Part shown: positions 23,923 to 53,716 of the stretch, one piece after another
Layout: the number at the start of each line of letters is the position of its first letter
How positions within the stretch are numbered: position 1 is the first letter of the stretch
Source: Magnetospirillum aberrantis SpK
GTDB taxonomy: Bacteria; Pseudomonadota; Alphaproteobacteria; Rhodospirillales; Magnetospirillaceae
Direction of reading: 5' to 3'
DNA length: 64,000 nucleotides
Assembly (NCBI RefSeq): GCF_011022235.1
Contig: NZ_JAAIYP010000026.1
Coordinates: 1-64,000, forward strand
Translations under genes and position numbers: made by a program
Notes under the pieces: generated by a model
The model's database searches: none
The model's input: the letters and a program-made list of their open reading frames with translations, nothing else
Told to the model about the DNA's origin: nothing

Positions 23923-24327
23923 TCAGGGATTGGTCAGCAAGTTGACGTCGTGCAATCCGTGGCGTTGGATGGACGCCATCACCGTCATGGTCCGGCCGTA
24001 GCGAACCGCGTCATGGACACGGAGATAGAGGGCCGGCGGCTCGCCTTGAGCGGCCAGTTGCGCAAGGCGCAGGTCCAAACCGTCCGCATTGTCCAACCTT
24101 TCGCCGTTCCAAAACAAAGTGCCGTCGGCGTCCAGCGTCAGCCGCACCGGCGGTTGTTTCGGCGGCACCGCCGCGCTGTCCGACGGCAACGCGGTGGACA
24201 GGCTGTGCAATGGAACGGGAATGGTGACGATCAGCATGACCAGCAACACCAGCAACACGTCGATCAGCGGCGTGGTGTTGATGTCGGGAGAAGCCCCCCC
24301 GTCGTCGTCCCGGAAATAACCTTCCAT
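23923..24327 (-). CDS. exbD: ExbD-type biopolymer transport protein (second copy)
   Basis: 134 residues: short acidic N-terminus, one transmembrane helix with the essential Asp in PDINTTPLIDVLLVLLVMLI (about 13-32), then a periplasmic domain. ExbD couples the proton gradient with ExbB to energise TonB. It is the last gene of the nine-gene metal-uptake operon that begins with the TonB-dependent receptor at 32491. Two different ExbD proteins in a row are also known for Tol/Exb variants in which a heteromeric ExbD forms. Confidence 0.88.
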   Translation of the reverse strand: MEGYFRDDDGGASPDINTTPLIDVLLVLLVMLIVTIPVPLHSLSTALPSDSAAVPPKQPPVRLTLDADGTLFWNGERLDNADGLDLRLAQLAAQGEPPALYLRVHDAVRYGRTMTVMASIQRHGLHDVNLLTNP

Positions 24328-24333: not shown

Positions 24334-24750
24334 TCACTCCGGTCGCAGCACGAACCCCAGCCGGGTCAACCCGGCTTGGCGGCATGCATCCATGATTTTG
24401 GCCACGGCGGCGAACGGCAAGTCGGCATCGCCGCGCAATTGGATCGCCGGATGGGCCGCGGCCACCAGACGAAGCCGGTCTTGCAATTCCTCGAACCCGG
24501 ACAACGGCGTATCGTCCCAAAAGAGCCGCCCGTCGCCATCCAGGCTGAGGATCACGGTCCCGGCATCCCCCAGCAACGGCGCGGCCTGTTCCCGTGGCAG
24601 GTTGACCGGCACGCCGACGCTGATCACCGGCACGGTGATCAGGAAGATGATCAACAGGACCAACATCACGTCCACCAGCGGTGTGGTGTTGATGTCCACC
24701 ATCACCGCCTCGTCATCGTCGCCGTCGTCGGGCGGAACAGACACGGCCAT
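24334..24750 (-). CDS. exbD: ExbD-type biopolymer transport protein (first copy)
   Basis: 138 residues. The same layout as the copy downstream: MVDINTTPLVDVMLVLLIIF contains the membrane helix and the proton-carrying Asp, followed by a periplasmic domain. It lies 2 bp after exbB and 6 bp before the second exbD. Identity to the neighbour outside the helix is low, so this is an old duplication or two distinct subunits. Confidence 0.88.
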   Translation of the reverse strand: MAVSVPPDDGDDDEAVMVDINTTPLVDVMLVLLIIFLITVPVISVGVPVNLPREQAAPLLGDAGTVILSLDGDGRLFWDDTPLSGFEELQDRLRLVAAAHPAIQLRGDADLPFAAVAKIMDACRQAGLTRLGFVLRPE

Positions 24751-24752
24751 GA

Positions 24753-25466
24753 TCAGGCTGTCCGCGACGCCAGAACCGGCGCGACGGCCGGGCGTTGCCC
24801 CGGTTCGGCCCGTTCGCTCACCCGCCCGGCCAGCAACAGGACATGGGCCCCGGCGGTGAAGTCGCGCAGACTGTCCCCGGCAATTTTGTTGCGCCGATTG
24901 AGCCAGTTGTAGGCCAGCACGGCGGGGACCGCCACCGCCAACCCCAAGGCGGTCATCACCAGCGCCTCGCCCACCGGACCGGCCACCTTGTCGATGGCCG
25001 CCTGCCCCGAACGGCCGATGGCTGTCAATGCATGGTGGATGCCCCACACCGTGCCGAACAGGCCGACGAAGGGCGCGGTGGAGGCGATGGTCGCCAAAGC
25101 CGCCAGCCCCCCTTGCAATCGCCCCAAGGATCGGGCCAACGCCCGGTTCAGACCCAACGACAACATTGCATTGCGGTCCAGTTCGATGGTGGCGCCGTCA
25201 TGGCGGCGCAACGCCTCCAGACCGCTTTGGGCAATGGCGAAAAACAGCCCGTCCTCGGGCAGCGCCTCCAACGACAGACAATTGCCCAGGGCCGCCATGG
25301 CTTGTCGGGACTGTCGCAGCAGGCGGACCTGTTCCACCAGCTTGACCACCAGCACGGTCCACGAGGTCACCGACATAAGCAGCAACAGCGCCAGGGTGGC
25401 GCGGGCGACCACGTCCCCTTGGGCCCACAATTCGGGCAGACTGGTCGAGAATTCCTGCGAGATCAT
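24753..25466 (-). CDS. exbB: ExbB-type proton channel protein
   Basis: 237 residues with three transmembrane helices (about 20-42, 130-155, 170-195). The MotA/TolQ/ExbB signature is GGLAALATIASTAPFVGLFG, followed by TVWGIHHALTAIG, then VAGPVGEALVMTALGLAVAVPAV. It works with the two ExbD proteins and the TonB encoded just upstream. Confidence 0.9.
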   Translation of the reverse strand: MISQEFSTSLPELWAQGDVVARATLALLLLMSVTSWTVLVVKLVEQVRLLRQSRQAMAALGNCLSLEALPEDGLFFAIAQSGLEALRRHDGATIELDRNAMLSLGLNRALARSLGRLQGGLAALATIASTAPFVGLFGTVWGIHHALTAIGRSGQAAIDKVAGPVGEALVMTALGLAVAVPAVLAYNWLNRRNKIAGDSLRDFTAGAHVLLLAGRVSERAEPGQRPAVAPVLASRTA

Positions 25467-25470
25467 GGCA

Positions 25471-26103
25471 TCACTCCAGTTTCCAGACATAACGCAACCG
25501 TACCCAGGCCTGCCGGGGACGGCCGTCCGCCGTACCGGGCGAAAAGCGACAGCGCGACAGGGCGGACAAAGCCGCCTGATCCAGGCTTTCCGAACCGCTT
25601 GACGCTTCCAGGCGCCGGTCGGCGACCCCGCCGTCCTCGTCAATCAACAGCGCCAGCGTCACCACGCCGGTTTCATGCCGCCGCCTGGCGTCCGCCGGAT
25701 AGGCCGGTATGCGGCAAGAGATGGCCGCCGGTTCACGCCGTATCGGCCGGGACGCGACACTGGGCACGGCGGCGGGCGCGATTGTGGGTGCGGCGGCGAC
25801 CGCAGGCGCGGCACTTGCTTCGGCGGAGGGCAAAACAGATGCCGGAGATGGCGAAGGTGACGGCATCGCGGCGGAGCGCGGCCGGGATCGCGGCTTTGGG
25901 GGGCGTATTGTCGGCTTGGGCGGCGGCTCGACGACAGGCGCCGGGGCTGGGGAGGCTGGCTCGGGCTCAGCGATCAGCCGCGCTTCCAGAACGGGCAAGG
26001 TGACCTTTGGTGGCACCGTGTCGCGACCGGGGGCCAGCGCCGCCACGGCCGCCGCATGCAGACCACAAATTCCGGCCAACACCGCCCAGCGCCAACGTCT
26101 CAT
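25471..26103 (-). CDS. tonB: TonB-like energy transducer
   Basis: 210 residues: N-terminal membrane anchor (WAVLAGICGLHAAAVAALAPG), a Pro-rich spacer (about 47-110) and a C-terminal TonB domain (about 125-210: IPAYPADARRRHETGVVTLALLIDEDG, then DQAALSALSRCRF). It spans the periplasm to energise outer-membrane receptors. Its ATG overlaps the stop of the NifE-like gene by 4 bp. With ExbB and two ExbD it gives this operon its own TonB system. Confidence 0.88.
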   Translation of the reverse strand: MRRWRWAVLAGICGLHAAAVAALAPGRDTVPPKVTLPVLEARLIAEPEPASPAPAPVVEPPPKPTIRPPKPRSRPRSAAMPSPSPSPASVLPSAEASAAPAVAAAPTIAPAAVPSVASRPIRREPAAISCRIPAYPADARRRHETGVVTLALLIDEDGGVADRRLEASSGSESLDQAALSALSRCRFSPGTADGRPRQAWVRLRYVWKLE

Positions 26104-27404
26104 GCTCCACCGCCCCGCGCCCGGTGCCAGGGCGCGGCCACGCCGCCGGGGCGGCGCAAGGGATGGCGCAAGGCGCGCCGGATCTCGCCCCCCAGATTGA
26201 CCATGCCGTCATAGCCGGACAGGGCGACGCGGCGGCCGTGGGTAACATCGACCCACGGGATTCCGGTGCGAAAGGCCAGGTGACGCAAGCCATCCGACCC
26301 CAGAACCACGTCAACGCCCCCACCGGCCAGTTCGGCCTCGACCTGGGAGTCGGCGCCGCCGCCCCGAACACACTCCTCGCCCAGCAAGCGGACGGCACGG
26401 CGGCAATCCTCGTCCGAGGCCTTGCGCAGCGTGCTGCCCGCCACCTCCATTCCCAGTTCCCGCAAGGCGCCGGCCAACGCCCAGGTCTTGATGCCGCCGG
26501 CCAGCAACAGGGCACGGCGCCCCCGCAGATCGGCGAGCAAAGGCCGCAGCCGCGTCCGGGTGCTGGCCTCAAGGGCGGCGACCAAGGAATCGGCACGGGC
26601 CGGCAAATCGGTGGGACCACCCCGGTCGGCCAGCAGGTGGCAAAGCGCACGCAAGGTGGCCGCGATATTGCCCATGCCATAGAAACTGCCCTGTACGAAG
26701 GGGACGCCATGGCGTTCCCATAACCCTTCGGCCAATCCGCCCATGGCCTGTGAGCACAAGGTGACGGCGGCTCGCGCCCGATGGGCGGTGGCGATGGCGC
26801 CGATCCGGCCATCGCCGGGGATCGAGGCCAGCACCCGGATACCCAGGGCCCGCAACAGTCCCGTGGCCTGCCACACCTCGCCGGCGACGTTGTATTCACC
26901 GATCAGCACGACGTCGGTGGTGGTGGTGTGTTCCGGTTCGCGGGTGCCGATCACCTGATCCAACAGAACCCGACCCGCGGCATCCGCGCCGGTGTCGCGA
27001 CCGCCGGCAAAGCCGGGAACGTCCACCGCCACCACCGGGCGGTGGAATTGCCGGCTGAGACGGCGGCACAGGCCGTGGACGTCGTCGCCGACCATGGCCG
27101 GGACACAGGTCTGGTACACGAACACCCCAGCCGGATCGCGGGCGGCGACGACCGCCGCCACCGCCGCTTGCAGCCGGGCCTCGCCGCCGCCGATGACATC
27201 CATCTCGCGCAGATCGGTCGCCATGGCGTGGCGATGGTGGTCGGGGCCGGACCCTGGGGTCGGCCGCACCTCCCAGGCCAAGCCCTGACAGGTCACCGGA
27301 CCATGCACCAGATGCACGGCGTCGGCGATGGGCTGCAACGCCATCTTGGCGCCGCGAAAGGCGCATCCGCCCGAAGCCATCTTACGACACTTGCCACTCG
27401 TCAC
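26100..27404 (-). CDS. Orphan NifE/VnfE-like protein in a TonB/FecBCD uptake operon
   Basis: 434 residues from a GTG at 27404 that follows GGGGGGGAAC; an ATG at 27380 would remove one conserved Cys. The whole protein aligns with NifE: GGCAFRGAKMALQPIADAVH, then LVHGPVTCQG, VYQTCVPAMVGDDV, LIGEYNVAGEVW and VPFVQGSFYGMGNIAATLR. Cys6, Cys14, Cys39 and Cys100 correspond to NifE Cys25, 37, 62 and 124, so the metal-cluster ligands are kept. No NifN-like partner is beside it. It lies between the periplasmic binding protein and TonB. A scaffold or sensor for the imported metal is possible (inference); the ordinary vnfE at 42547 is a separate gene. Confidence 0.85.
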   Translation of the reverse strand: MTSGKCRKMASGGCAFRGAKMALQPIADAVHLVHGPVTCQGLAWEVRPTPGSGPDHHRHAMATDLREMDVIGGGEARLQAAVAAVVAARDPAGVFVYQTCVPAMVGDDVHGLCRRLSRQFHRPVVAVDVPGFAGGRDTGADAAGRVLLDQVIGTREPEHTTTTDVVLIGEYNVAGEVWQATGLLRALGIRVLASIPGDGRIGAIATAHRARAAVTLCSQAMGGLAEGLWERHGVPFVQGSFYGMGNIAATLRALCHLLADRGGPTDLPARADSLVAALEASTRTRLRPLLADLRGRRALLLAGGIKTWALAGALRELGMEVAGSTLRKASDEDCRRAVRLLGEECVRGGGADSQVEAELAGGGVDVVLGSDGLRHLAFRTGIPWVDVTHGRRVALSGYDGMVNLGGEIRRALRHPLRRPGGVAAPWHRARGGGA

Positions 27405-27421: not shown

Positions 27422-28462
27422 TCAGTTGTTCATGGGGTTGCGGCGGCTGCCGTCGGGCGAACGGCCCTGCAACAACTGGCTCACGTCGCCATCGGACAGG
27501 GTCACGCGGTAGAAACGGGCGTAATAGGCCTTCACCTCGGCGGCCAGGTCGAAATCGCGGAACAGGTCGGGATAGAGCAGCTTGGCCATGAACTGCATCA
27601 GCAGAACGTTTTCCGGGCCGCCATCCCAATAAAACACCCCTTCCGGGGTGGAATGGACGCGCCCCGAGCGTACCGCCGCGACGTCTTTCCAGCGCGGATC
27701 GTCCAGCACCAGTTCCAGCGGATACTGGCGCCCCACCAGGATGACCTCGGGATCCCAGCCCAGCATGTCCTCCATGGACACGCCGCCCTTGTCGGCCAGG
27801 GACGCCCGCCCCACCACCATGTCGGCCCCGGCCAGCAATCCGGCGCCATAGGTGTAGCTGCCACGCCCCTGGGTGCTCAGCGCCTGGGGACCGCGCACGT
27901 AATAAAGCCGGGTGCGCCGCGCGGGCGGCACCTTGGCGACCCGTCCGGCGACGAAACGCACCCGCTCGTCGAAATAGGCGCACCATTCCTCGGCCCGCCG
28001 TTCGGCCTCGCCGCCCAGCGCCTTGCCGAACAGCCGCACCATGGCCTTGGCCTCGTCGGCGAATCCCTGGCCGTCGGGGCGGGCATGGCTCAGCGGCTGC
28101 GACAACAGGGCGGGAACCCCCAGTTCCGCCAGCTTGGCCCGCGTCCGTTCGGGCGCATACCGGAAAAAGGCCAATTGGGCGCCACGGGCCAACACTTCTT
28201 CCATGTTGACCTCGGCTCCGACACGCGGAATGGCGGCGGCGGCCGGGTTGGTGGCGACCAGCCAGGGGGCGGCGTTGTCGGTCATCAGCACCACCCGGTC
28301 GGCGGCCCCCAACATCAGCATCTTGGGATAGCACAGCACCTCCAGACAGGCGACGCGGTCGGCGTGGTCGGGCACCGACACCACCCGGCCGGCCATGTCC
28401 TCGATCTCGCGTCCCCAGGCCGGAGCGGCAAGCACCGTCAAAAGGATCAGCAGACGGCGCAT
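27422..28462 (-). CDS. Periplasmic binding protein, FecB/BtuF class (metal-chelate uptake)
   Basis: 346 residues: signal peptide MRRLLILLTVLAAPAWG, then a class III binding-protein fold (IEDMAGRVVSVPDHADRVACLEVLCY; WDPEVILVGRQYPLEL; VRSGRVHSTP). It would carry a ligand from the outer membrane to the permease encoded upstream. Ligands in this class include siderophores, haem, cobalamin and, for MolA, molybdate or tungstate. Its start overlaps the ATPase stop by 16 bp. It contains several Cys near the N-terminus (ACLEVLC), unusual for a periplasmic protein. Confidence 0.85.
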   Translation of the reverse strand: MRRLLILLTVLAAPAWGREIEDMAGRVVSVPDHADRVACLEVLCYPKMLMLGAADRVVLMTDNAAPWLVATNPAAAAIPRVGAEVNMEEVLARGAQLAFFRYAPERTRAKLAELGVPALLSQPLSHARPDGQGFADEAKAMVRLFGKALGGEAERRAEEWCAYFDERVRFVAGRVAKVPPARRTRLYYVRGPQALSTQGRGSYTYGAGLLAGADMVVGRASLADKGGVSMEDMLGWDPEVILVGRQYPLELVLDDPRWKDVAAVRSGRVHSTPEGVFYWDGGPENVLLMQFMAKLLYPDLFRDFDLAAEVKAYYARFYRVTLSDGDVSQLLQGRSPDGSRRNPMNN

Positions 28463-29259
28463 GACGTCCCCCCCTCCTCCCGCCCCAGCGGCAGGCACAG
28501 GCGGCGGCGTTCGTCCACCGCCACCAGACGGGTGGCGACCCCATAGGTCAGCCGCAGGTAATCCTCGGTCACCATGGCGGCCGGCGTTCCGACCCGCAAC
28601 CGCCCGGAGCGCTCCAGACAGGCGACGCGGTCGGCGTAGCACAGGGCGTGATTGGGATCGTGGGTGGTCAGCACCACCGCCATGCCCTTGTCGGCGGCCA
28701 GGGCGCGGATGCGTTCCAGCACCAGGATCTGGTTGCCGAAATCCAGGTTGGACGTCGGCTCGTCCATCACCAGCACCGCCGGCTGCTGGGCCAGGGCACG
28801 GGCAATCAGCGTCAACTGGCGCTCGCCGCCGCTGATCTCGGTATAGGCCCGTCCGGCCAAGGTGCCGACCCCCATGTCGTCCAGGGCGGCCCGCGCCAAG
28901 TCGACGTCGCGGCGCGATGGTTGGGCGAAAGGACCAAGGTGGGCGGCCCGTCCCATGGTCACCACGTCCAGCACCGAGAAAGGAAACGGCGGAGAATGGG
29001 CCTGGGGGACATATCCCATCTCGGTCGCCAGCCGCGTGGCCGGCCAGCGCGCCACGTCATGGCCGCGAACCTTGACGACCCCCGCCAACGGCGGTTGCAG
29101 CCGCAGCATGGTTTTGAACAGCGTGGTCTTGCCGATGCCGTTGGGACCAAGCAGACACAGAACCTCGCCACCACGGACGATCAGGTTGACGTGACGCAGC
29201 ACCGCCCGGCCGCCATAGCCGCAGGTGACGCCGTCCAATTCCACGAGCGGGGGGATCAT
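28447..29259 (-). CDS. FecE/BtuD-type ABC transporter ATPase
   Basis: 270 residues. Walker A GPNGIGKTT (about 37-45), signature ISGGERQLTLIARALAQ, Walker B VLVMDEPTSNLD and the H-loop TTHDPNHA. The family feature MGYVPQAHSPPFPFSVLDVVTMGR matches metal-chelate importers. The C-terminus ends CAVC, a possible extra metal site. ATG 29259 is chosen; an ATG 12 bp upstream is an alternative. It overlaps both neighbours. Confidence 0.9.
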   Translation of the reverse strand: MIPPLVELDGVTCGYGGRAVLRHVNLIVRGGEVLCLLGPNGIGKTTLFKTMLRLQPPLAGVVKVRGHDVARWPATRLATEMGYVPQAHSPPFPFSVLDVVTMGRAAHLGPFAQPSRRDVDLARAALDDMGVGTLAGRAYTEISGGERQLTLIARALAQQPAVLVMDEPTSNLDFGNQILVLERIRALAADKGMAVVLTTHDPNHALCYADRVACLERSGRLRVGTPAAMVTEDYLRLTYGVATRLVAVDERRRLCLPLGREEGGTSCAVC

Positions 29260-30299
29260 GACCGTGTCCATCCCTTGGCTCCGTTGCGCAACAGGATCAG
29301 GAAGACCGGAGCGCCGACCAGCGAGGTCAGGATGCCCAGCGGCACCTCGCCCGCTGTCAGGACCCGAGCCAGATCGTCCACCACCAACAGGAAAGCGGCA
29401 CCCAAAACCGTGCTGGTCGGCAGCAGAACCCGGTAATCCGGCCCCACCAACAGCCGGACCAGATGGGGGACGATCAACCCGACCAACCCGATGATGCCGG
29501 CCAACGCCACCGCCGAGGCGGTCATCAGGGTCGCGGCGACGATGACGATTGCCCGCAGCCGGATGACGTCCACGCCCAGGGCGCGGGCCTCCTCGTCGCC
29601 GAAGGTCAAGAGGTTGAGACGCCAGCGCAGCCCCAGCAACGGCAACAGGCCGGCGGCCATGGGCAAGGCGGCAACACCGAGATCGCGCAGCGACACCGAG
29701 GCCAGACTGCCCATCAGCCAGAAGGTGATGGCCGGCAAGGTGTTGTGCGGATCGGCCACGTATTTGGTGAAGGCGATGCCGGCTGAAGCCACGGTGCCGA
29801 CGATGATGCCGGCCAGGACCAGGGTCAGGACGCCGCCGCTGCGGTCGCCGGCACCGATCCCATAGGTCGCCGCCACCGCCACCAGACCGCCGCCGAAGGC
29901 GCAGAACTGGACACCGCCGCCGCCCATGCCCGACAGGATGCCCAAGGCGGCACCGAATCCGGCCCCGGCCGCCACCCCCAACAGGTCGGGGGAAACCATG
30001 GGATTGCGGAACACCCCCTGGAAGGCGGCACCCGAAGCCGACAGCGCCGCCCCCACCGCCATTGCCGCCAGGATGCGCGGCAGACGGATGGCCCACACCA
30101 CCGTTTCCGCCTGCGACGGCCAGAACGGCGTCAGCGGCACCAGCTTGGCCGCCAGGATGGCGACCACCGTATGCGGAGCCACCGGATAGCGGCCGACCAG
30201 GAACGAGGCCAGGAAGACGGCCGCCAGAACGGCCGCCACCCCCAGCGGGCGCATCAGCACCCGCCCCCGAACGGCCACAAGCGGCGAAGCGGCGGCCAT
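29256..30299 (-). CDS. FecCD/BtuC-type ABC transporter permease
   Basis: 347 residues with about ten transmembrane helices. The family segments RLPRILAAMAVGAALSASGAAFQ followed by GVFRNPMVSPDLLG, TFWLMGSLASVSL, LTFGDEEARALGVDV and GIIGLVGLIVPHLVRLLVGPDYR are all present. It is the inner-membrane channel of the importer encoded by its two downstream neighbours. The start lies 5 bp after the receptor gene. Confidence 0.92.
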   Translation of the reverse strand: MAAASPLVAVRGRVLMRPLGVAAVLAAVFLASFLVGRYPVAPHTVVAILAAKLVPLTPFWPSQAETVVWAIRLPRILAAMAVGAALSASGAAFQGVFRNPMVSPDLLGVAAGAGFGAALGILSGMGGGGVQFCAFGGGLVAVAATYGIGAGDRSGGVLTLVLAGIIVGTVASAGIAFTKYVADPHNTLPAITFWLMGSLASVSLRDLGVAALPMAAGLLPLLGLRWRLNLLTFGDEEARALGVDVIRLRAIVIVAATLMTASAVALAGIIGLVGLIVPHLVRLLVGPDYRVLLPTSTVLGAAFLLVVDDLARVLTAGEVPLGILTSLVGAPVFLILLRNGAKGWTRS

Positions 30300-30304
30300 G
30301 GCCC

Positions 30305-32491
30305 TTACCACTCGGTCCGCACCGACAGGGAAAACACCCGTGGCGCCCCCAGCACCAGACCGTCGGAACTGCGGTAATAGGCCCAGTAGGCGGTGTCGAA
30401 CACGTTGCTGACATTCAGGTTGACGGTGACGGGGTGGCCGTAGAGTTCGGGGGTGTAACGCAAGCCGGCATCGAAGATGGTGGCGCCGTCCATGTACTGG
30501 GTGTTCAGGCTGTCCACCGGACGTTCGCCGTAATAATTCATGCCGCCGGTCACGCTCAGGTCGGGAACGAACGGCAAGGCGTATTCCACCCACAACCGGG
30601 CCATCTCTTCCGGCACGTTGATCGGGGTCTTGCCTTTGGTGGCCGGGGCCGCCTGGGCCTTTTCGATGTGGGCATCCATCACCGTGAAGCCGCCGCCCAG
30701 GGTCAACCGGTCGGTCAACTTGCCGATGGCGGTGACTTCAAGCCCCTGATGAATTTCGCGCCCGTCCTGTTTGTACATGTGGTCCGACGGGTCGATCCCG
30801 GCGTTGACCTTGTCGATATGGAACAAGGCGCCGGTCAGGTCCATTTCGCCGATGCGGGCTTTGACGCCGGTTTCGTATTGCTTGCTGATGGAAGGCGGCA
30901 AAACCTGGTTGGCGTTGACAGCGGTGGCGTCCGAGGTGCTGTCGCCTTGCTGCAAGGCCTCCACGTAGGAAGCATAGAGGGAAGCCTCGGGAACCGGCTT
31001 GAACACCACGCCGACACTGGGAGTGTTGGCCTCGGCCTTGTAGTTCGAGGTGCTGATGGTGGTGCCGCGGCCCCAGGCATGCTGATCGTAACGGGCATGG
31101 GTGATGCCCAGCAGCAGCTTCCATTGCTCGTTCAGGGTCAGGGTGTCGCCCAACAGATAATTATTGTTGTAGGTTTGCTGAAAATTGTTGTTCGGGGCGA
31201 AGGTATAGGCGGTGGCGGACAGGGAATAGCTGGGCTGGCTTGAGAACGAGGCGTTGCCGAGAGTCTGGGTGTTCTTGTTGGCCCGCTTGTAGTACATGTC
31301 GGTGCCGGTATAGCCGAAGGTCACTTCGTGGCCGATGCCGAACGTGCCGAACTTGGCGTCCATCAAGGCATAGGCCGAGTGGTATTGCTCGCTCTGCGTC
31401 GGCTCGATGTTGGCGACTTCGCTGTAATTGCCCGAATTGTCCAGCAAGACCGCGTTCACATAGGTGTCGCGGCGCCACATGGTGGCGTAACGATAGCCGG
31501 TGCGCAGGGTGAACGTGTCGTTCAACTTGCTGTCCAGGCCGGTCCCCACCACCGTCTTTTCCGATTGGTTGTAGGTCCAGGGCTGAGTGTACTGGGTGGA
31601 CGGGTCAAGATCCTTGGCGTCGGGCACGCGAATGCCGGTGCCCGACCAGTTGCCGCCGTTGGGACGGAAATAGGTGCTCAGGCCCTGCACCTTGTAGTCC
31701 TGGTGCCACATGTCGGCACGAACCACGGTGTCGGGGGCCAATTGATAGGTCAACACGCCCGACACCAGGGCGCGGTCCTGTTCGCCGCCGTCGATGAAAG
31801 TGCTGCCGTTTTCACGGTAGGCGTTGAAACGATAGCCCAGCCGGTTTCCAGTGCTCGCCACCTTGCCGCCCAGGTCGGCGTGGACATAGCCGATGCCGCC
31901 GCCATAGACACCCGCCGTGGCGCTGGTCAGGGTCTTTTCTGTCGGCATCTTGCTGACATAGTTGATGGTGCCGCCCGGTGCCGAGAAGCCGTAGAGGAAG
32001 CCGTTGAAACCGTTCAGCACCTCGATGCGGTCGACGATTTCCATAGGCGGGAAGGTGAAACTGCGATCCACCAGACCGTCACGCAACTCGCCGCCATCGG
32101 CCGCGGTGAAGCCGCGGATCATCATGCGGGTCAGCGAGTTGATACCGTTGGAATTAAGCAGCGAGGCCACGGTCGGATTGGGTTTCAGCGCTTCTTCCAG
32201 GGTGTGGGCTTCGCGGTTGCGCATCATCTCACCCGAGGTGACGTGCAGCGAATAGGGCGTGTCCTGAAGCGAGGTCTTGCCCAGCGGCCCCAAATTGCCG
32301 GCGTCGTAGCGATAGCCGTTTTCAACGCTGCCTTCGGGCGTTTCCTGCTGATCGGTGACCACCACTTCGGCGGTCGCTTCGGTTTCGGAGGAAGCCGTCT
32401 GCGCGGCGGCCGGAGAGAAGGCGGACAACACCAGGGACATGGCGGTGCCGGCGGTCAGGGCAAAGGATCGGGAAACGGATTGGGGGCGCAT
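30305..32491 (-). CDS. TonB-dependent outer-membrane receptor (siderophore type)
   Basis: 728 residues: signal peptide (MRPQSVSRSFALTAGTAM...AAAQ), a TonB-box-like VVVTDQQ, a plug domain (LQDTPYSLHVTSGEMMRN; RIEVLNGFNGFLYGFSAPGGTINYVSKMP) and a 22-strand barrel ending in the aromatic-terminated VFSLSVRTEW. It is the first gene of the operon receptor-permease-ATPase-binding protein-NifE-like-tonB-exbB-exbD-exbD. The plug resembles receptors for ferric siderophores; here the ligand may be another metal chelate. ATG 32491 follows ATGGAG; an ATG at 32503 has no ribosome-binding site. Confidence 0.88.
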   Translation of the reverse strand: MRPQSVSRSFALTAGTAMSLVLSAFSPAAAQTASSETEATAEVVVTDQQETPEGSVENGYRYDAGNLGPLGKTSLQDTPYSLHVTSGEMMRNREAHTLEEALKPNPTVASLLNSNGINSLTRMMIRGFTAADGGELRDGLVDRSFTFPPMEIVDRIEVLNGFNGFLYGFSAPGGTINYVSKMPTEKTLTSATAGVYGGGIGYVHADLGGKVASTGNRLGYRFNAYRENGSTFIDGGEQDRALVSGVLTYQLAPDTVVRADMWHQDYKVQGLSTYFRPNGGNWSGTGIRVPDAKDLDPSTQYTQPWTYNQSEKTVVGTGLDSKLNDTFTLRTGYRYATMWRRDTYVNAVLLDNSGNYSEVANIEPTQSEQYHSAYALMDAKFGTFGIGHEVTFGYTGTDMYYKRANKNTQTLGNASFSSQPSYSLSATAYTFAPNNNFQQTYNNNYLLGDTLTLNEQWKLLLGITHARYDQHAWGRGTTISTSNYKAEANTPSVGVVFKPVPEASLYASYVEALQQGDSTSDATAVNANQVLPPSISKQYETGVKARIGEMDLTGALFHIDKVNAGIDPSDHMYKQDGREIHQGLEVTAIGKLTDRLTLGGGFTVMDAHIEKAQAAPATKGKTPINVPEEMARLWVEYALPFVPDLSVTGGMNYYGERPVDSLNTQYMDGATIFDAGLRYTPELYGHPVTVNLNVSNVFDTAYWAYYRSSDGLVLGAPRVFSLSVRTEW

Positions 32492-32596
32492 GCCGGGCTC
32501 CATCGCGCCACGCCAAGGCGTGGTCGGTAACGATTGAAGAACCGGCTCAGGCCGTGCTCCGCCCGGTTTTCGCCAAAGGCGCCAGGCCAGGGAGAT

Positions 32597-32783: not shown

Positions 32784-33590
32784 TCATCGATTCTGACTGA
32801 CAAACCGCTTGCGGATGAACGCACTGGCACCGTTCAGGAGAGTGACCATGGCCAACAACACCAGCACCAGGGCGGCGGCCTCGCGATATTCGAACAGGTG
32901 AAAGGCGGTGACGATCTCCAACCCCAATCCCCCCGCTCCGACCACCCCCAGCGTGGTGGCGGCGCGCACGTTGTGTTCCCATCGATAGATGGTGGCATCC
33001 ATCAGACGCGGCAGTACCTGCGGCCAGACGCCAAAGCGGAACACCCCCAAGGGCGACACGCCATGGGCACGCAGGGCGTTGCCGGGAGCCCGGTCCACAT
33101 GTTCGAAGATTTCCGAATAGAACTTGCCCAATACGCCGGTGGAATGGGCGGCCAGGGCGAAGATGCCGGGCAACGGGCCAAAGCCGACGGCGGCAACGAA
33201 CAGCACCCCCCAGATCAGGCCGGGGATCGACCGCATGGCATTGAGCAACAGGCGTACCGGCTCGCCCGCCCAATTGGGCGCCACGTTCCGTGCCGCCACC
33301 CCCGCCAGCGGCAGGGCGATCAGACCGCCCAGCACGGTTCCGGCAATGCTCATGGCCAGGGTTTCCACCAGCGGCTTGCCCCATTTGGTCCACCGGCTGA
33401 AATCAGGCGGCGTGGCGTCGCCGGCCAAGGTCAGGATGGTGGTCAGCGCCCCGCGATAACGGGCCGGGTCGAACACCCCGGCATAGGCGAACGCCAACAT
33501 GATGACCCCCACCCCCATGGCCGAACCCAGGGCGTTGTGTCGCAACGACCGCCGCCCGGCGGCCAGAACCATGCCCACGCGGTCGGTCAT
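32784..33590 (-). CDS. PhnE-type ABC transporter permease, candidate vanadate importer subunit
   Basis: 268 residues with about six transmembrane helices and the permease EAA-like loop EHVDRAPGNALRAHGVSPLGVF followed by RFGVWPQVLPR, as in phosphonate/phosphate-analogue permeases (NVRAATTLGVVGAGGLGLEI is the PhnE signature). The matching ATPase and binding protein lie 16 kb away at 49664-51356. It starts 4 bp after a NifX-like gene and closes the vnfDGK minus-strand run. Vanadate is chemically like phosphate, so vanadate import is a reasonable inference; phosphonate import is the alternative. Confidence 0.8.
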   Translation of the reverse strand: MTDRVGMVLAAGRRSLRHNALGSAMGVGVIMLAFAYAGVFDPARYRGALTTILTLAGDATPPDFSRWTKWGKPLVETLAMSIAGTVLGGLIALPLAGVAARNVAPNWAGEPVRLLLNAMRSIPGLIWGVLFVAAVGFGPLPGIFALAAHSTGVLGKFYSEIFEHVDRAPGNALRAHGVSPLGVFRFGVWPQVLPRLMDATIYRWEHNVRAATTLGVVGAGGLGLEIVTAFHLFEYREAAALVLVLLAMVTLLNGASAFIRKRFVSQNR

Positions 33591-34088: not shown

Positions 34089-34979
34089 TCAGGTCATGGG
34101 CAGGCCGGGCACGTTGACCTCGCGCCCGAAACGCTGGCGAAACTCGGCCGGCAGGGTCAGGCCGTCGTCCAGACGGGCCCGCCAACGCGGCAACTCGTCC
34201 AGCGGCAGGGCAAAGTCGCGCAACGCCTCGACCGGTACGATGTAGAGAGCGCGGTCATAGACCACGTAGAAATCGATGGGCGTGCGCGCCGGGTCGCGAT
34301 GCAGGGCGCCGACCTCGAAGGCGATGCGGCCGTCCGCGATCTGAATCTTGGGATTGTCGCAATCGAAACGGAAATGCCGGTTGAAGAAGAACGCCGGCTT
34401 GTACTGGTAAAGGATACGGTCCTCGTCGGCGAAACGCTTCACCTCGGCCACGATGTCGGCCAGGTATTGCAGCATCATCGCGTCCACATAAGCGTCGGGA
34501 TAAGGCTGGCCGGCGGATTCCAGATAATAGGCCGCCGCCGCCTCCAACAGCCCCAGGCCGGCCGGCGTGATTTCCAAGGACAGCGCCACAAGGTCGATGG
34601 CGCCGTTGACACGGACGATGCCGTCGTCGAATTCGATATGGCCGTGACGGTGCACCGCCACCGCGCGCACCACGCGCAGCATGCGGAACAATTCGCCGGC
34701 CACCTTTTCGGACGGGGTCTTGCGCGGCAGGCTCTGGTATTTCTGCCAGCCGCTCTTGTTCTGGGCTTCGGGACACCGGCTCTCAAGCGCCATGTCCAAC
34801 AGCGACGACGCCCACAACGCCCGCGCCACCAATCCCACCGCCGGGGAACGAGGTGCCGGATCGGCGAAGCTCAGGGCCTTCTTCTTGGTGTAAAGCTCGA
34901 CCTGCCGGTATTCGGTACGGCGCGGCCGGTCGCCGGCCAGGGCGTACAGCCCGGCCGCAAGGTCATCGAACAGATCCAT
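34089..34979 (-). CDS. Unknown protein following vnfK
   Basis: 296 residues, soluble, no signal peptide and no motif that I recognise. Visible are a basic N-terminal third (YRQVELYTKKKALSF), a helical middle with two Glu-rich turns (KRFADEDRILYQYKPAFFFN) and a pair of segments with many aromatic residues (FFFNRHFRFDCDN, DFYVVYDRALYIV). It is co-oriented with vnfDGK, 61 bp after vnfK, across a strong hairpin, and 11 bp before a NifX-like gene. Context suggests a part in V-nitrogenase maturation; it does not resemble AnfO. Confidence 0.7.
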   Translation of the reverse strand: MDLFDDLAAGLYALAGDRPRRTEYRQVELYTKKKALSFADPAPRSPAVGLVARALWASSLLDMALESRCPEAQNKSGWQKYQSLPRKTPSEKVAGELFRMLRVVRAVAVHRHGHIEFDDGIVRVNGAIDLVALSLEITPAGLGLLEAAAAYYLESAGQPYPDAYVDAMMLQYLADIVAEVKRFADEDRILYQYKPAFFFNRHFRFDCDNPKIQIADGRIAFEVGALHRDPARTPIDFYVVYDRALYIVPVEALRDFALPLDELPRWRARLDDGLTLPAEFRQRFGREVNVPGLPMT

Positions 34980-35040: not shown

Positions 35041-38209
<3,169 letters not shown>

Positions 38210-38295: not shown

Positions 38296-38392
38296 AAGCC
38301 ATCCAGCCCCACCCAACGGCGCGTCACGCCTAGGAAAACCGCCCTTTTCAGGAAGTCCCGCCCCCCACGGCGGCGACGGCATTCGATAGTTC

Positions 38393-38406
38393 GTACCGGT
38401 ACGTTC
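38393..38406. promoter_or_regulatory. VnfA-type enhancer candidate (GTAC-N6-GTTC)
   Basis: GTACCGGTACGTTC contains the palindrome GTACCGGTAC and fits the GTAC-N6-GTAC/GAAC pattern that I recall for Azotobacter VnfA. It sits about 100 bp upstream of the vnfD promoter and 68-81 bp upstream of the divergent promoter at 38474, so it could serve both. Confidence 0.55.
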
Positions 38407-38488: not shown

Positions 38489-38498
38489 CTTAAGAAAA

Positions 38499-42405: not shown

Positions 42406-42491
42406 ATTCCTGATCATGCGAGCACACATCCGTACAGCCTTCTGCTACCGACATTCTTGGAAATCGAGACATCGCACGGACCTGCCGACGA

Positions 42492-42506
42492 TGGCACGTC
42501 GTTTGC
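42492..42506 (+). promoter_or_regulatory. Sigma-54 promoter of vnfENX
   Basis: TGGCACGTCGTTTGC followed by T is a perfect -24/-12 match, 40 bp before the vnfE ATG. It settles the vnfE start: an in-frame ATG at 42457 lies upstream of the promoter and cannot be used from it. Confidence 0.9.
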
Positions 42507-42546
42507 TGGTCTTCTCTCCGACTTTTGGCGCAACCGGGAGAGCGGC

Positions 42547-43923
42547 ATGAACGCGGACGACATCCAGGCCCTGTTGAACGAACCGGCCTGCGCCCACAAC
42601 GACAAGACCAAATCGGGGTGCGCCCGCCCCAAGCCGGGGGCGACGCAGGGCGGCTGTTGCTTCGACGGCGCCCGCAACGCGCTCCTGCCCATCGCCGACG
42701 TCGCCCATGTGGTGCACGGCCCCATCGGCTGCGCCGGATCGTCGTGGGACAACCGCGGCACCCGGTCCTCCGGCGCCAGCCTGTACCGCGTCGGCATGAC
42801 CACCGACCTGAGCGAATTGGACGTGATCATGGGCCAGGGCGAAAAACGCCTCTATCGCTCGATCCGACAGGCGGTGGAAAGTCATGCTCCGGCGGCGGTG
42901 TTCGTCTACACCACCTGTGTCCCGGCCTTGCACGGCGACGACGTCGAGGCGGTGTGCAAGACCGCCGCCCAACGCCTGGGCGTACCGGTGGTGCCGGTGG
43001 ACGCCGCCGGCTTCTATGGCAACAAGAACCTGGGCAACCGCATCGCCGGCGACGTCGTCTACCGACACGTCATCGGCAGCCGTGAACCCGCCCCCTATCC
43101 CCATGCGGCACGCCGTCCCGGCATCACCCCCCACGACATCAACCTGATCGGCGAATGGAACGTCGGCGGCGAATATTGGAACGTGGCGCCGCTGTTGGAC
43201 GAACTGGGCCTGCGGGTGCTGTGCACGTTCTCGGGCGATGCACGTTTCGCCGAGGTGCAGACCATGCACCGGGCCGAGGCCAACATGGTGGTGTGCTCCA
43301 AGGCCATGCTGCATGTGGCGCGCAAGCTGAACGAGGATTGGGGCACACCCTTCTTCGAGGGAAGCTTCTATGGCCTGCGCGACACCAGCCAGGCGCTACG
43401 CGACATCGCCCGGCTGTTGGGCGACCCGGACCTGACCGAACGCACCGAAGCGCTGATCGCGCGCGAAGAGGCCCGCGTCGAGGCGGAACTGGCGCCGTTG
43501 CGACAACGGCTGACGGGCAAGCGGGTGCTGATCTTCACCGGCGGCTACAAATCGTGGTCCATCGTTTCCGCCATGCAGGACCTTGGGCTGGTGGTGGTGG
43601 CCACCGGCACCGAGAAATCGACCGAGGAAGACAAGGCCCGCATCAAGGACCTGATGGGGCCCGACGCCCGCATGATCGCCGACAACGACCAGCACGCCCT
43701 GATCGCCACCTTTCACGAAACCGGCGCCCACATCCTGGTGGCCGGCGACCGCTACATCTATCCGACGCTGAAATCGCGGCTGCCATTCCTCGACATCGAC
43801 CATGTCCGTTCCATCGGCTACGCCGGCTATGACGGGATGATCGAACTGGCACGCAACCTGTGCCGATCAGTGGAAAGTCCGGTCTGGGCCAAAGTGCGCG
43901 CCCCGGCCCGCTGGGCTGCCTGA
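42547..43923 (+). CDS. vnfE: Cofactor scaffold protein VnfE
   Basis: 458 residues, NifE family. The N-terminus has [20 protein letters not shown] and [20 protein letters not shown]; the cluster ligands correspond to Cys37, Cys62 ([17 protein letters not shown]) and the [14 protein letters not shown] Cys. [12 protein letters not shown] and [20 protein letters not shown] are further family blocks. With VnfN it carries the NifB-derived cluster while vanadium and homocitrate are added. Start 42547 follows GGGAG and the sigma-54 promoter. Confidence 0.92.
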
Positions 43924-43940
43924 GGGGGAGAGCAAGGGAC

Positions 43941-45320
43941 ATGGCCGAAATCATCCACCCCGGAAAACCGCTTGCCGTCAACCCGCTGAAGGTCAGCCAG
44001 CCGGTGGGAGCCTCTCTGGCCTTTCTCGGGCTGGCCGCCACCATGCCTTTGGAGCACGGAGCCCGTGGCTGCGCCAGTTTCAACAAACTGTTCTTCATGC
44101 GCCATTTCCGCGAGCCCATCGCGCTCCAGACCACCGCCATGGATCAGGTGACCACGGTGATCGGCGCCGACGACAACGTGGTCGAGGCCCTGGCCACCAT
44201 CTGCGCCAAGGATACCCCCGCCGTCATCGGCCTGATCACCACCGGCCTGTCGGAAACCCAGGGAGCCGACATTCCCCGCACCATCAAGGCGTTCCGCGCG
44301 GCCTATCCGCAATACGCCGCCATAACGGTGGTGCCGGTCAACGCCACCGACACCCAAGGGTGCCTGGAAACCGGTTTCGCCCTGGCGATGGAAGCCATCA
44401 TCGCCACCATGGTTCCCGCGCAACCGGCCAAGATCCGCCGTCCGCGCCAGATCAACGTGCTGGCTTCGTCCATGCTGACGCCGGGTGACGTCGAGCATCT
44501 CAAGGACTGGATCGAAGCGTTCGGGTTGACGGCCATCGTCCTGCCCGACCTCGCCGATTCCCTGGATGGCCACCTGATCGACGAGGGCTATTCGACACTG
44601 ACCTATGGCGGCACCCGCGCCGCCGACATCGCGGCCTTGGGCGAATCGGCGGCGACCTTGGTCGTCGGCCGCTCGCTGGGCCGTGCCGCCGACCTGTTGC
44701 GGACCCGCACCGGCGTACCGGACCATCGCTTCCCCGGCCTGATGGGGTTGGACGAATGCGACGCCTTCACCCACGTCCTGGCACGGCTGTCGGGGCGCCC
44801 GGTGCCCGAACGGCTGGAGCGCAAGCGTTCGCAACTGCTCGACGCCATGGTGGATTGTCATTTCACCCTGGGCGGCACCCGCGTCGCCATCGCCGCCGAC
44901 CCCGACCTTTTGGCCGGCATGGTGCGGTTCTGCGCCGACATGGGCATGGAAGTGGTGGGCGCGGTGGGCGCGGCCAAGGCACCGGCGCTGGCCGGGTTGT
45001 CGGTGGACCGGGTGGTGGTCGGCGACCTCGAGGATCTGGAGGTCATGGCCAAGGGCGCCAAGGCGGAACTGATCGTCACCAACTCGCACGGCACCGATAT
45101 CGCCGCCCGGCTGGGCGTGCCGCTGTTGCGCGCCGGTTTCCCGTTGTACGACATCTATGGCGGCCCGGCGCAGTGCTGGGTGGGGTATGACGGCAGCCGC
45201 CACACCCTGTTTCAGTTGGCCAATCTGCTGACCACCTTCCACCAGGAAATCTCTCCCTACCGCCCGGCCTATTGGCAGGGCACGCCCCGCGACCAGGAGA
45301 ACGGAGCCACCCCATGCTGA
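43941..45320 (+). CDS. vnfN: Cofactor scaffold protein VnfN
   Basis: 459 residues of the NifN family: NPLKVSQPVGASLAFLG at the start, Cys44 in HGARGCASFNKLFFMRHFREP, TGLSETQGADI, VVPVNATDTQGCLETGFA and a C-terminal QCWVGYDGSRHTLFQLANLL. It forms the scaffold tetramer with VnfE. GAGAGCAAGGG lies just before ATG 43941. Its stop overlaps the vnfX start by 7 bp. Confidence 0.92.
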   Translation: MAEIIHPGKPLAVNPLKVSQPVGASLAFLGLAATMPLEHGARGCASFNKLFFMRHFREPIALQTTAMDQVTTVIGADDNVVEALATICAKDTPAVIGLITTGLSETQGADIPRTIKAFRAAYPQYAAITVVPVNATDTQGCLETGFALAMEAIIATMVPAQPAKIRRPRQINVLASSMLTPGDVEHLKDWIEAFGLTAIVLPDLADSLDGHLIDEGYSTLTYGGTRAADIAALGESAATLVVGRSLGRAADLLRTRTGVPDHRFPGLMGLDECDAFTHVLARLSGRPVPERLERKRSQLLDAMVDCHFTLGGTRVAIAADPDLLAGMVRFCADMGMEVVGAVGAAKAPALAGLSVDRVVVGDLEDLEVMAKGAKAELIVTNSHGTDIAARLGVPLLRAGFPLYDIYGGPAQCWVGYDGSRHTLFQLANLLTTFHQEISPYRPAYWQGTPRDQENGATPC

Positions 45321-49065: not shown

Positions 49066-49278
49066 TTTCGTTCGCCGCCGTACAATGAACGGATATGTTC
49101 TTTTTATAAATCAACGTACTAGCGTTGACATGAGAATATAGATCAGTAACACTGACTTTGTTGACGGGATGTTTTCGCCACCCCGTCGGATGACGGCCTG
49201 AGCCGGACCAGACACCGCCCCATGCGCGCGTTTCCATCACGCGTCGTGTCGGGTGCGCACAGTCCCGGACGGCCGCGC
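49066..49278. other. Intergenic region with GTAC motifs
   Basis: 213 bp, with an AT-rich centre (49095-49150). GTAC occurs at 49080 and at 49116 inside CAACGTACTAGCGTTG, a dyad with 5-bp arms that also reads GTAC-N6-TGAC. No perfect sigma-54 promoter is seen. These could be weak VnfA sites for the NifX-phnC-phnD operon. No terminator is evident. Confidence 0.4.
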
Positions 49279-49677
49279 ATGCTTGATCCCGCCCCCCACC
49301 TTAAAGCCGCCTTCGCCACCGACAGCCGCAACTGGGTGGATGCCGACCTCGCATGGTCCCGGCATCTGATGGTCTACGACGTCACCCTTGGCGGCAGCGA
49401 CCTGCTCCACGCTCGCGATTACCGCACGGGCGACGCGGCCGATCAGTTGGCGGCCAAACTGCGGGTGTTGGGCGGCTGTGGCGTCCTGTTCAGCACCGGC
49501 CTGTCCGACCAGACCGCCCTGACCTTGTCCCAGGCGGGAATTTTCCCGGTGGTGCTGGAACAGCGCCGGCCCATTTCCGCGGTGCTGTCCCGTCTGCAAA
49601 CCCTGATGCGCCGCGACCCGCCTTTGTGGATGTGCCGCGTGCTGCGCTACGGAGCCCCCCTCCATGACCCACTTTGA
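49279..49677 (+). CDS. NifX-family protein, second lineage, linked to transporter genes
   Basis: 132 residues from ATG 49279; an in-frame ATG at 49222 would add 19 unlikely residues and neither start has a strong ribosome-binding site. NifX fold: LKAAFATDSRNWVDADLAWSRHLMVYDV, GGCGVLFSTGLSDQTALTL and the terminal RRDPPLWMCRVL. The DxHF motif reads VDADL, so the cofactor-binding His is missing, as in the protein at 33595. It overlaps phnC-like by 14 bp. Confidence 0.75.
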   Translation: MLDPAPHLKAAFATDSRNWVDADLAWSRHLMVYDVTLGGSDLLHARDYRTGDAADQLAAKLRVLGGCGVLFSTGLSDQTALTLSQAGIFPVVLEQRRPISAVLSRLQTLMRRDPPLWMCRVLRYGAPLHDPL

Positions 49678-51356: not shown

Positions 51357-51508
51357 CTCCCTGGCGCGGTGGCCATCGCGCCATCGCGCTTAGCCCCCCC
51401 ACCATCACGACAGATGCCGGCACCATCGGCACCGGAGGCAGGCCTGAGCCTGGAAACCATCCCCCGCGTCCTTTTGCGCGAAAAAACTCCCTGGAAGGAT
51501 TGCATGCA

Positions 51509-53716
51509 ATGGTTCGCCAGTTCCCCGTTTCCCCGCTCGTGTGCCGTCTGACCGCGACCAGTTCGTTCGCCGTGTTGATGACCCTGGCCCCGCTGGCGCA
51601 TGCTCAGGTCGCCGCCACCGACGACGAAGCTGCGGCCGTCACCGTTGTCGTGACCTCCAACAAAAACACCGGCTCCGAGGCCGATGGCTACCGGGTCAGC
51701 GATTTCGGCCTGGGGCCGCTGGGTGACCGACCGGCACTGGACACCCCCTATGCCGTCCAAACCGTGCCGCAGGACCTGATTCAGAATCAGGGGGTCACGG
51801 ACAATTGGGAATTGCTGAAATACCTGCCGTCGACCCAGATCGAATATCGCGGCGGCTCCGAGGTTGGACGTCCGCAAAGCCGCGGCTTCGAGGCGGATTT
51901 GTTGGGCAACACCCGCATCGACGGCTTCGCCGTGCAGTCGCATATTCCGCAGCCCATCGAGATGACCGACCACATCGACGTGCTGAGCGGCCTGTCTGGC
52001 GCCCTGTATGGCCCCATGAACCCGGCCGGCGTATTCAACTATGTACTCAAGCGCCCAACCGAGACCACGCTGAACCGGGTCGGCCTGGCCTATCAGTCGG
52101 ACGGCAACCTCACCACCCGCGCCGACCTGGGCGGCCGCGCCGGCAAGGACAACATGTTCGGTTATCGCCTGAACGTGGCCCACACCGATGGCGAGACCTT
52201 CTCCGACACCAGCAACCTGCGCCGCGAGGTTGCCAGTCTGGCGGTGGACGCCCGCCTGCCGTCCGACACGGTGCTGGAAGCCAGCGCCGGCCGCTACGTC
52301 TACGACCGCAACGGCTATCCCGGTTCCTTCTCCGTCGCCACCGGCGCCGGCGCTCAACTGCCCGATGCCGGCAAGCTGGACCAAAAGGGATACAGCTACG
52401 ACTGGGCTGGCGTACAGACCACCATCGACTATTACACCGCCAAGCTCACCCACCACTTCAACCAGGATTGGAAGATCACCGGCGGCCTGATGCGCCAGAA
52501 CACCACCCGCGTCATGCGTAGCGTCAGCAACACCTTGTCCACCGACGCCGGCAGCTACCGGGCCCGGGCCAGCGAGGCCTACGCCCATTGGGAACTGACA
52601 TCGAACCAGCTTTACCTGAACGGCCGAACCGAGCTGGCCGGGATGGAACACGAACTGACCTTCGGCACCAACGGCTACGTCAATCCCGGTTTCGCCGCCA
52701 ACAACGGCAACAACGCCGCCACCAACACCAGCGCGTGGTGCGACATCGGCAACACGTCGTGTGCGGTCTCGCCGCTGAACTGGAAAACAGACGGCGGCTT
52801 CTACCGTACCGGCACCGAAGACCGCTACCAGACCGCCATCATCGGCGACACCGTCACCATCAACGACCAATGGTCGGTGCTGGGGGTGGTCAGCAACGGC
52901 TGGATCACCGCGGAAAGCACCACCCCGGCGCAGGCGATCGACGAGGACGACGCCCTGTCCTACACCGGCGCCGTCATGTACAAGCCGCGGCCGGACATGA
53001 CCGTCTACCTCAACTACGCCTCTAGCGTGCTGCCCGGCGAACGTGCCCCCAGTTCCGGCGCCAACCTGCCGGCCAACGCCGGCCAGCCCATGGACCCTTA
53101 CGAAGCCACCCAATGGGAAATGGGCTACAAGGTGGAATTGTCGGGGTTGGACGTGAACGTCGCCGCCTTCCACATCAAACGGCCCACCGCCTATGCCGGC
53201 ACCGACAACGTCTACCGGGTCCAGGGGCAACAGCGCAACCAGGGCCTGGAACTGATGACCAAGGGCAAGCTGGCCGACGACATCACCATCTTCGGCGGCG
53301 TCACCTGGTTGGACACCAAGGTATCGGAGACAGACAGCGTCGCCACCGAAGGGAAACAGGCCATCGGCGTTCCCGAATGGCAGGCCAACCTGTTGACTGA
53401 ATACAAGCTGCCCGAATCCCTGGTGCCCGGCACCACCGCCAGCCTGAACCTGCACTATACCGGCGAGCGCGCCGCCAACGCCTACAACACCGCCTGGGCA
53501 GACGGCTACACCACCGTCGACATCGGCCTGCGTTTCAGTGGCGAGGCCGTCGGCCGCAAGCTGACGGCGCGGCTGGGGATCACCAACCTGTTCGACGAAC
53601 GCTATTGGGCGTCGATCATGCCCAGCAACGTGGCCGGCGATTCCACCACCTCGGGCTCCAGCGCCTTCCTGGGCGAACCACGGACGTTCAAGGCCTCGGT
53701 TTCCATGGACTTCTGA
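51509..53716 (+). CDS. TonB-dependent outer-membrane receptor (siderophore type), second
   Basis: 735 residues: signal peptide (MVRQFPVSPLVCRLTATSSF...AHAQ), TonB-box-like TVVVTSN, plug (LDTPYAVQTVPQDLIQNQG; HIDVLSGLSGALYGPMNPAGVFN) and a barrel ending in the aromatic FKASVSMDF. ATG 51509 follows GGAAGGA and gives a regular signal peptide. It heads the operon with a binding protein, a permease and an ATPase, 153 bp after the phnD-like gene. It differs from the first receptor in most of the barrel. Confidence 0.87.
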   Translation: MVRQFPVSPLVCRLTATSSFAVLMTLAPLAHAQVAATDDEAAAVTVVVTSNKNTGSEADGYRVSDFGLGPLGDRPALDTPYAVQTVPQDLIQNQGVTDNWELLKYLPSTQIEYRGGSEVGRPQSRGFEADLLGNTRIDGFAVQSHIPQPIEMTDHIDVLSGLSGALYGPMNPAGVFNYVLKRPTETTLNRVGLAYQSDGNLTTRADLGGRAGKDNMFGYRLNVAHTDGETFSDTSNLRREVASLAVDARLPSDTVLEASAGRYVYDRNGYPGSFSVATGAGAQLPDAGKLDQKGYSYDWAGVQTTIDYYTAKLTHHFNQDWKITGGLMRQNTTRVMRSVSNTLSTDAGSYRARASEAYAHWELTSNQLYLNGRTELAGMEHELTFGTNGYVNPGFAANNGNNAATNTSAWCDIGNTSCAVSPLNWKTDGGFYRTGTEDRYQTAIIGDTVTINDQWSVLGVVSNGWITAESTTPAQAIDEDDALSYTGAVMYKPRPDMTVYLNYASSVLPGERAPSSGANLPANAGQPMDPYEATQWEMGYKVELSGLDVNVAAFHIKRPTAYAGTDNVYRVQGQQRNQGLELMTKGKLADDITIFGGVTWLDTKVSETDSVATEGKQAIGVPEWQANLLTEYKLPESLVPGTTASLNLHYTGERAANAYNTAWADGYTTVDIGLRFSGEAVGRKLTARLGITNLFDERYWASIMPSNVAGDSTTSGSSAFLGEPRTFKASVSMDF

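Follow-up and report, generated by a model that had tools for sequence, protein, structure and literature searches.

Downstream of a periplasmic binding-protein gene, the stretch of Magnetospirillum aberrantis SpK DNA analysed here (64,000 nucleotides, referred to as the window) encodes a NifE-like protein, hereafter Q, which is best read as an ancient alpha-type subunit of the NifE family that was recruited into a metal (or metallophore) uptake operon that, among the genomes searched, was found in V-nitrogenase genomes only. The features of the operon and its surroundings, with coordinates in the window, are the following:

26100..27404, minus strand: Q, NifE-like protein of 434 aa (PF00148, 277 bits; five-member clade, support 100/100)
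27422..28462, minus strand: PBP1, periplasmic binding protein of the FecB/BtuF type (PF01497, Peripla_BP_2)
28447..29253, minus strand: ABC1, ATPase of a FecBCD-type importer (PF00005, ABC_tran)
29256..30314, minus strand: FecCD1 permease (PF01032)
30305..32503, minus strand: TBDT1, TonB-dependent siderophore-type receptor (TIGR01783, 262.7 bits against a cut-off of 223.5)
32489..32561 (core 32542-32561), minus strand: conserved leader of the TBDT1-Q operon, its end at the likely start codon of TBDT1
25471..26103, minus strand: TonB (PF03544, TonB_C)
24753..25502, minus strand: ExbB-type energiser, start approximate (PF01618, MotA_ExbB)
24334..24768, minus strand: ExbD, copy 1, start approximate (PF02472)
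23923..24327, minus strand: ExbD, copy 2 (PF02472)
35041..38197, minus strand: vnfK, vnfG and vnfD, V-nitrogenase structural genes, on the same strand as the Q operon (TIGR02932, TIGR02930 and TIGR01860, over cut-offs)
42457..45320, plus strand: vnfE and vnfN, the V scaffold pair of this genome (over the TIGR01283 and TIGR01285 cut-offs)
49187..49281, plus strand: leader copy 2, 5' of NifX-like, PhnC and PhnD genes
51433..51511, plus strand: variant leader copy, 5' of TBDT2, with closing pair A-T instead of C-G

The PBP1 ORF extends to 28642, with a likely start at 28462 as read from its signal-peptide-like N-terminus, and the true start of TBDT1 is likely at 32491. Farther upstream of TBDT1, this strand also carries vnfKGD and genes for a PhnE-type permease and a NifX-like protein, and a gene for VnfH is found near the Q operon. 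Regarding the substrate of the importer, no NCBIfam equivalog cut-off was reached for the listed permease, ATPase and binding-protein models.

The gene for Q runs without interruption from a GTG at 27404, preceded by a purine-rich Shine-Dalgarno-like run and located 17 bases past the stop codon of the PBP1 gene, to a stop codon at 26100-26102, its 3' end overlapping tonB by 4 bp (ATGA). The first-pass annotation, which had placed it in a metal-uptake operon between a binding protein and tonB with this same overlap, was therefore right on this point. The entire protein corresponds to the PF00148 fold (277.1 bits, gathering cut-off 28.6), without any regulatory domain, and its score against the NifE equivalog TIGR01283 was 399.7 bits, under the cut-off of 505.1. 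The genome contains nine PF00148 matches, four of them on contig C11, which read as nifDKEN, and five on the contig of the window (C26), corresponding to vnfD, vnfK, vnfE, vnfN and Q. As the other NifE-type genes are one nifE and one vnfE, Q is indeed the third NifE-like protein, as had been proposed. The operon also lacks a NifN partner, in agreement with the earlier claim, and within the stretches examined no nifN was found beside Q at any of the five loci where it occurs.

These five loci were identified by sequence search and tree in 5 of the 55 genomes of the family (the window's own, G000, and G023, G028, G034 and G052), and across the order (317 genomes) the Q clade was likewise present in five, each of them VnfD-positive. 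Among these 317 genomes, a profile built on the five Q proteins gave 637-763 bits for its members, a match by construction, and 593 bits for the best other protein; in a single-sequence search, the Q orthologs scored at least 427 bits versus 408 for the best NifE, with no clean gap between them. In evenly drawn samples of the class (385 genomes) and the phylum (388 genomes), which do not comprise all V-nitrogenase genomes, Q was detected in a single genome, in both cases the window's own (E 1e-178), and a plasmid search gave nifE at 43% as top matches. A pattern scan of the relatives' contigs, covering close relatives only, retained 80 of 252 loci. VnfD was found over its curated cut-off in ten of 55 genomes of the family, the five Q genomes all among them (Fisher p 7e-5, a value that ignores kinship). 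The other five VnfD genomes of the family are devoid of Q, which is thus dispensable for V-nitrogenase.

The search for this arrangement in other V-nitrogenase genomes, suggested in the first-pass annotation, gave a positive outcome: the order TBDT-FecCD-ABC-PBP-Q was complete in four of the five VnfD-positive Q genomes (G000, G023, G028 and G034), and in G052 the genes ABC-PBP-Q-ExbB were found on a contig of 3.7 kb, too short for the whole order. Q was located directly behind the PBP1 gene at all five loci, and among the 55 genomes of the family, orthologs of PBP1 were detected in these five and in no others (361-821 bits; next best match, 121 bits), that of G028 being in two pieces, the better one with 472 bits. 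TonB-ExbB-ExbD-ExbD followed Q only in G000 and G028, and in G034 this set accompanied a second TBDT operon instead of the Q operon. Directly 3' of Q, tonB was found in two of the five genomes, exbB in a third one and neither of them in the other two, so that linkage with tonB/exb was seen in three of five. As a lasting partner of Q, tonB was ruled out by its absence from two of the five Q loci. The lasting linkage of Q is thus with the FecBCD/PBP operon and not with tonB; the proposed lock into an uptake operon held for the former, but not for tonB, which came directly after Q in only two of five cases. With respect to the vnf cluster, the Q module was adjoining in G000 and G034, about 20 kb off on the same contig in G028, and on a different contig in G023, G052 being too fragmented to place it.

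Maximum-likelihood trees of 63 and of 59 rows both recovered Q as monophyletic, with support 100/100, and Q and VnfE formed separate clades in each. The rows used for the trees and for the residue columns begin at the BLAST start, so the N-termini of Q were trimmed in them and the real starts were read separately; in addition, the branches of the Q rows are long and their composition is unusual. When NifD served as outgroup, Q was placed within NifE (supports of 88/73 and 80/51 at the forks), and with NifD omitted it joined VnfE (support 16/37). A sister relation of Q and VnfE was not rejected (AU p 0.30), and the pairwise scores of all five Q proteins were higher to NifE than to VnfE. A recent copy of vnfE, with the window's Q as sister to the VnfE of its own genome and of G028, was rejected (p-AU 4e-39), as were the whole Q clade beside these VnfE proteins (p-AU 1e-4) and a recent origin of Q from the nifE of the same genome (p-AU 0.018).

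The gene was intact in four of four assemblies other than that of G028, a frame-broken MAG whose Q row spans about 350 residues owing to the change of frame in its gene. Comparison of the window's Q with that of G028 gave dN 0.22 and dS 0.77 (dN/dS about 0.29), the same comparison giving 0.08 and 0.49 for VnfE and 0.18 and 0.64 for PBP1. Q is therefore under purifying selection, looser than that on VnfE and much like that on its PBP neighbour, and a decaying copy of vnfE was ruled out by the intact genes and the dN/dS. Q is an old clade and a maintained protein, in support of the earlier view of a working protein, and the tree analysis, set beforehand as the refuting test, left that view unrefuted, with Q outside vnfE and the arrangement present in relatives.

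Regarding the residues that bind clusters, C14, C39, C100 and C217 of Q correspond to C37, C62, C124 and C250 of Av NifE, so the NifE cysteine ligands recognised at first reading were verified; the O-cluster cysteines (Av C37, C62 and C124), by which NifE binds the interface [4Fe-4S] cluster, and the essential cavity Cys250 were retained in all five Q proteins. At Av position 419, the four alignable Q proteins and all 14 VnfE rows (13 distinct genes) carry His, whereas 106 of 106 NifE rows carry Gln; the NifE bin had 108 rows, from which we left out a divergent nitrogenase-like pair of G035 that we take to be methylthio-alkane-reductase-like (Mar-like). Only 13-26 residues precede the C37 equivalent in Q, with no EPACxHN-type motif, and the numbers of N-terminal cysteines in the five proteins (1, 2, 1, 3 and 1) come with varied spacing and no alignment, compared with at least two in the N-terminal segment of 106 of 106 NifE rows. 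Q is devoid of the conserved N-terminal segment carrying C15/C25, to which NifX delivers NifB-co in NifE. The earlier argument that the GTG start is meaningful because it keeps Cys6 is weak: every Q does have at least one N-terminal Cys, but Cys6 is not an aligned conserved residue.

Twenty of 163 near-invariant NifE columns were lost in all Q proteins, the N-terminal ones partly through row trimming, and just 2-4 of 30 columns diagnostic between NifE and VnfE were VnfE-like in Q. The predicted structure of Q matched the NifE fold with TM 0.84-0.87, as partly expected from the presence of NifE rows in the alignment of the Q model. The available parts of PMC13128457 and PMC13031127 describe the ligand roles of the NifE cysteines and of Gln419, the latter a weak ligand, and the part of PMC13031127 describes a Cys/His pair that anchors the clusters of NifDK and Mar. 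The retention of interface and cavity cysteines argues that Q still carries clusters, and the loss of the transit segment together with the Gln-to-His change argues for a firmer hold on the cluster and against NifB-co intake in the manner of NifE, of which Q may be incapable.

For the role of Q, we favour, with a probability of roughly 40%, an uptake-linked acceptor or insertase of the NifE type that, with VnfN or NifN as partner, channels imported metal, likely V, into cluster chemistry. The metal, most likely V, would enter via TBDT1 and FecBCD-PBP1; cytoplasmic Q would pair with VnfN (or NifN), VnfN being a candidate partner, would hold an [8Fe]-type cluster by its Cys/His pair, and would place the newly imported metal into a cofactor precursor. 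That Q works on the cargo of the importer is suggested by its invariant spot behind one PBP gene in VnfD genomes only. Counting against this role are the five VnfD genomes devoid of Q, the missing N-terminal segment, the 20 lost NifE columns, and the higher scores to NifE together with the few VnfE-like diagnostic columns.

In siderophore operons, a reductase is often encoded beside the importer, and Q could be the cytoplasmic reductase of this uptake system, similar to DPOR or CfbD, with electrons from VnfH or NifH reducing a metal-chelate so that the metal is released. Its invariant place directly behind the PBP gene and the nearby gene for VnfH fit such an activity, as do the interface-cluster cysteines, kept while the NifB-co-receiving segment was lost, and the Cys plus His pair, which suits a firmly held cluster (such a pair anchors the clusters of NifDK and Mar, according to the available part of PMC13031127); but VnfE, a scaffold, has the same His, and the operon encodes no dedicated NifH or beta-type partner, so we regard this option, the main rival, as less likely. 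In contrast to acceptor and reductase, a sensor or store would neither catalyse nor transfer, its occupancy by cluster or metal serving to report metal status or to buffer metal. The conserved placement with uptake genes, the absence of a partner gene from the operon and the lost transit segment are all compatible with it, but a protein that is PF00148 fold from end to end offers no regulatory domain, and such a function seems quite improbable.

The long branches of Q in the tree and its patchy spread over 5 of 10 VnfD genomes could also be the consequence of hitchhiking, with Q as a second-best scaffold derived from an old NifE duplicate, now fast-evolving and retained on a mobile island of vnf and uptake genes for a role that is minor or redundant. 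This seems unlikely in view of the gene being intact in the four assemblies outside the frame-broken MAG, of a dN/dS that resembles that of the PBP neighbour, of ligand cysteines kept in all five proteins, and of the strict co-occurrence with PBP1. The uptake-linked acceptor or insertase remains our preferred reading.

A leader with the core CNGA-N3-CGGCCT(G/A)AGCCGG was found upstream of the Q operon in four of the five Q genomes, ending at the likely TBDT1 start codon in G000, G023, G028 and G034, as well as upstream of other uptake operons of vnf genomes. The core pattern gave 19 matches in the 317 genomes of the order (reversed control, 5). Thirteen of these are in seven vnf-bearing genomes, and every one of the 13 precedes uptake genes, with four at the Q operon, six at NifX-like/PhnCD-type operons, two at TBDT operons of G201 and one at a tonB-exb-TBDT2 operon. 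The remaining six had no uptake-gene neighbour. Variant copies were located 5' of TBDT2 in G000 and G034. No exact match was detected in the whole genomes of G052 (a Q genome), G001, G014, G015, G123 and G125, and the relaxed matches in G015, G052 and G123 had no related uptake gene within about 1.5 kb. In the 13 vnf genomes, the relaxed pattern gave 34 matches, 15 preceding uptake genes and 19 not (reversed control, 9).

A search of the window and six related loci against Rfam 15 at gathering scores gave no match to the leader, the sole match being a tRNA, and when 601 bases were scanned permissively, one unrelated match appeared (E 0.56). RNAalifold on seven leaders returned one 4-bp hairpin and no covariation. 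An anchored hairpin abutting the leader upstream had a combined p of 7e-4, and pairing near the start codon one of 0.013; one change of a closing pair from C-G to A-T was seen, in two orthologous leaders; the fold z was -2.04 for the window's own leader and -0.48 for that of G028, one of the two thus being no better than shuffles. The leader is possibly a regulatory RNA, with weakly supported RNA structure, and equally may be a protein-binding site. The interval from PhnE to TBDT1 showed no site of the sigma-54 or VnfA-like kind, and the sigma-54 scan overall gave 92 matches versus 88 by chance. A broader scheme, in which Q, VnfN or NifN, and VnfH take V, or reductively free it, from the incoming chelate for cofactor assembly, and a V-uptake regulon (the Q operon, the PhnCDE-type transporter and the TBDT2 operon) is controlled by a single leader RNA of undescribed kind that senses metal or cofactor, appears doubtful.

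Other features were observed in the vnf region. Three exact TGGCACN5TTGC sites, presumably sigma-54-like, are located at 38474, 39319 and 42492 (plus strand), 5' of vnfF, vnfH and vnfE, and GTAC-N6-GTAC-like repeats, which we assume to be VnfA-like, cluster at 38389-38522 and 42182-42435 (15 versus 5.6 expected). Positions 46587-47810 and 47809-49065 (plus strand) encode tandem related proteins with DUF2478, DUF4213 and DUF364 ('putative heavy-metal chelation') domains, which have relatives in other vnf clusters and a possible function in metal handling for FeV-co. A PhnC/PhnD/PhnE-type ABC transporter is split over the region (49222-51356, plus strand, and 32784-33590, minus strand); from its context we guess that it is a candidate vanadate importer. 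A second TBDT-PBP-FecCD-ABC uptake system, without a NifE-like gene, lies beside vnf at 51362-56560 (plus strand). Between vnfK and the NifX-like gene, a protein without Pfam match (34089-34979, minus strand) is kept in the vnf clusters of other family genomes. Finally, in G035, which has vnf but no Q, a gene for O-acetylhomoserine sulfhydrylase and the two divergent nitrogenase-like genes mentioned above (locus L196, 2978-7206, minus strand) come directly after PhnE, the place occupied by TBDT1 in the window and in G034.

Compared with NifE, the FeMo-cofactor scaffold subunit of NifEN (PDB 3PDI, 9ONK and 9IAN), Q shares the fold, about 40% identity and the equivalents of C37, C62, C124 and C250, but it scores under the equivalog cut-off, lacks the N-terminal NifB-co segment, has His instead of Gln419, has no adjacent nifN and sits in an uptake operon. 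With VnfE, the FeV-cofactor scaffold subunit, it has in common the His at Av 419 and its occurrence in vnf-bearing genomes; unlike VnfE, which passes the TIGR01283 cut-off, it falls under it, is placed outside the VnfE clade and is devoid of most VnfE-diagnostic residues. The operon has all the component families of a FecBCD/BtuCDF-type uptake operon with a TonB-dependent receptor, and differs from the usual ones in that its last conserved gene encodes a NifE-type protein.

According to the available part of Dos Santos et al. 2012 (PMC3464626), nitrogenase-like genes adjoin ABC transporters in Clostridium and Methanocorpusculum, and a coupling of metal transport to cofactor assembly was suggested there. 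Q, too, is homologous to nitrogenase component 1 and encoded next to an ABC transporter; however, the cases in that part of the paper are divergent paired NifEN-like or NifHEN-like sets from Firmicutes and Archaea, whereas Q, derived from NifE, is encoded by a lone gene within a TonB/FecBCD operon of alphaproteobacteria that have V-nitrogenase. With respect to the coupling idea, as far as that part presents it, Q is a new variant, one that is simpler and amenable to genetics. Our literature search, which covered subscription journals thinly, found no paper that describes either an orphan NifE within a TonB/Fec operon or the leader.

In conclusion, the step from imported V or Mo to the cofactor precursor is poorly known, and a NifE-type protein tied to an importer provides a genetic and biochemical handle on it. 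The Gln-to-His change common to Q and VnfE marks a residue by which cofactor scaffolds may select their metal, and the leader, if a real regulatory RNA, may switch vanadium uptake in response to metal.
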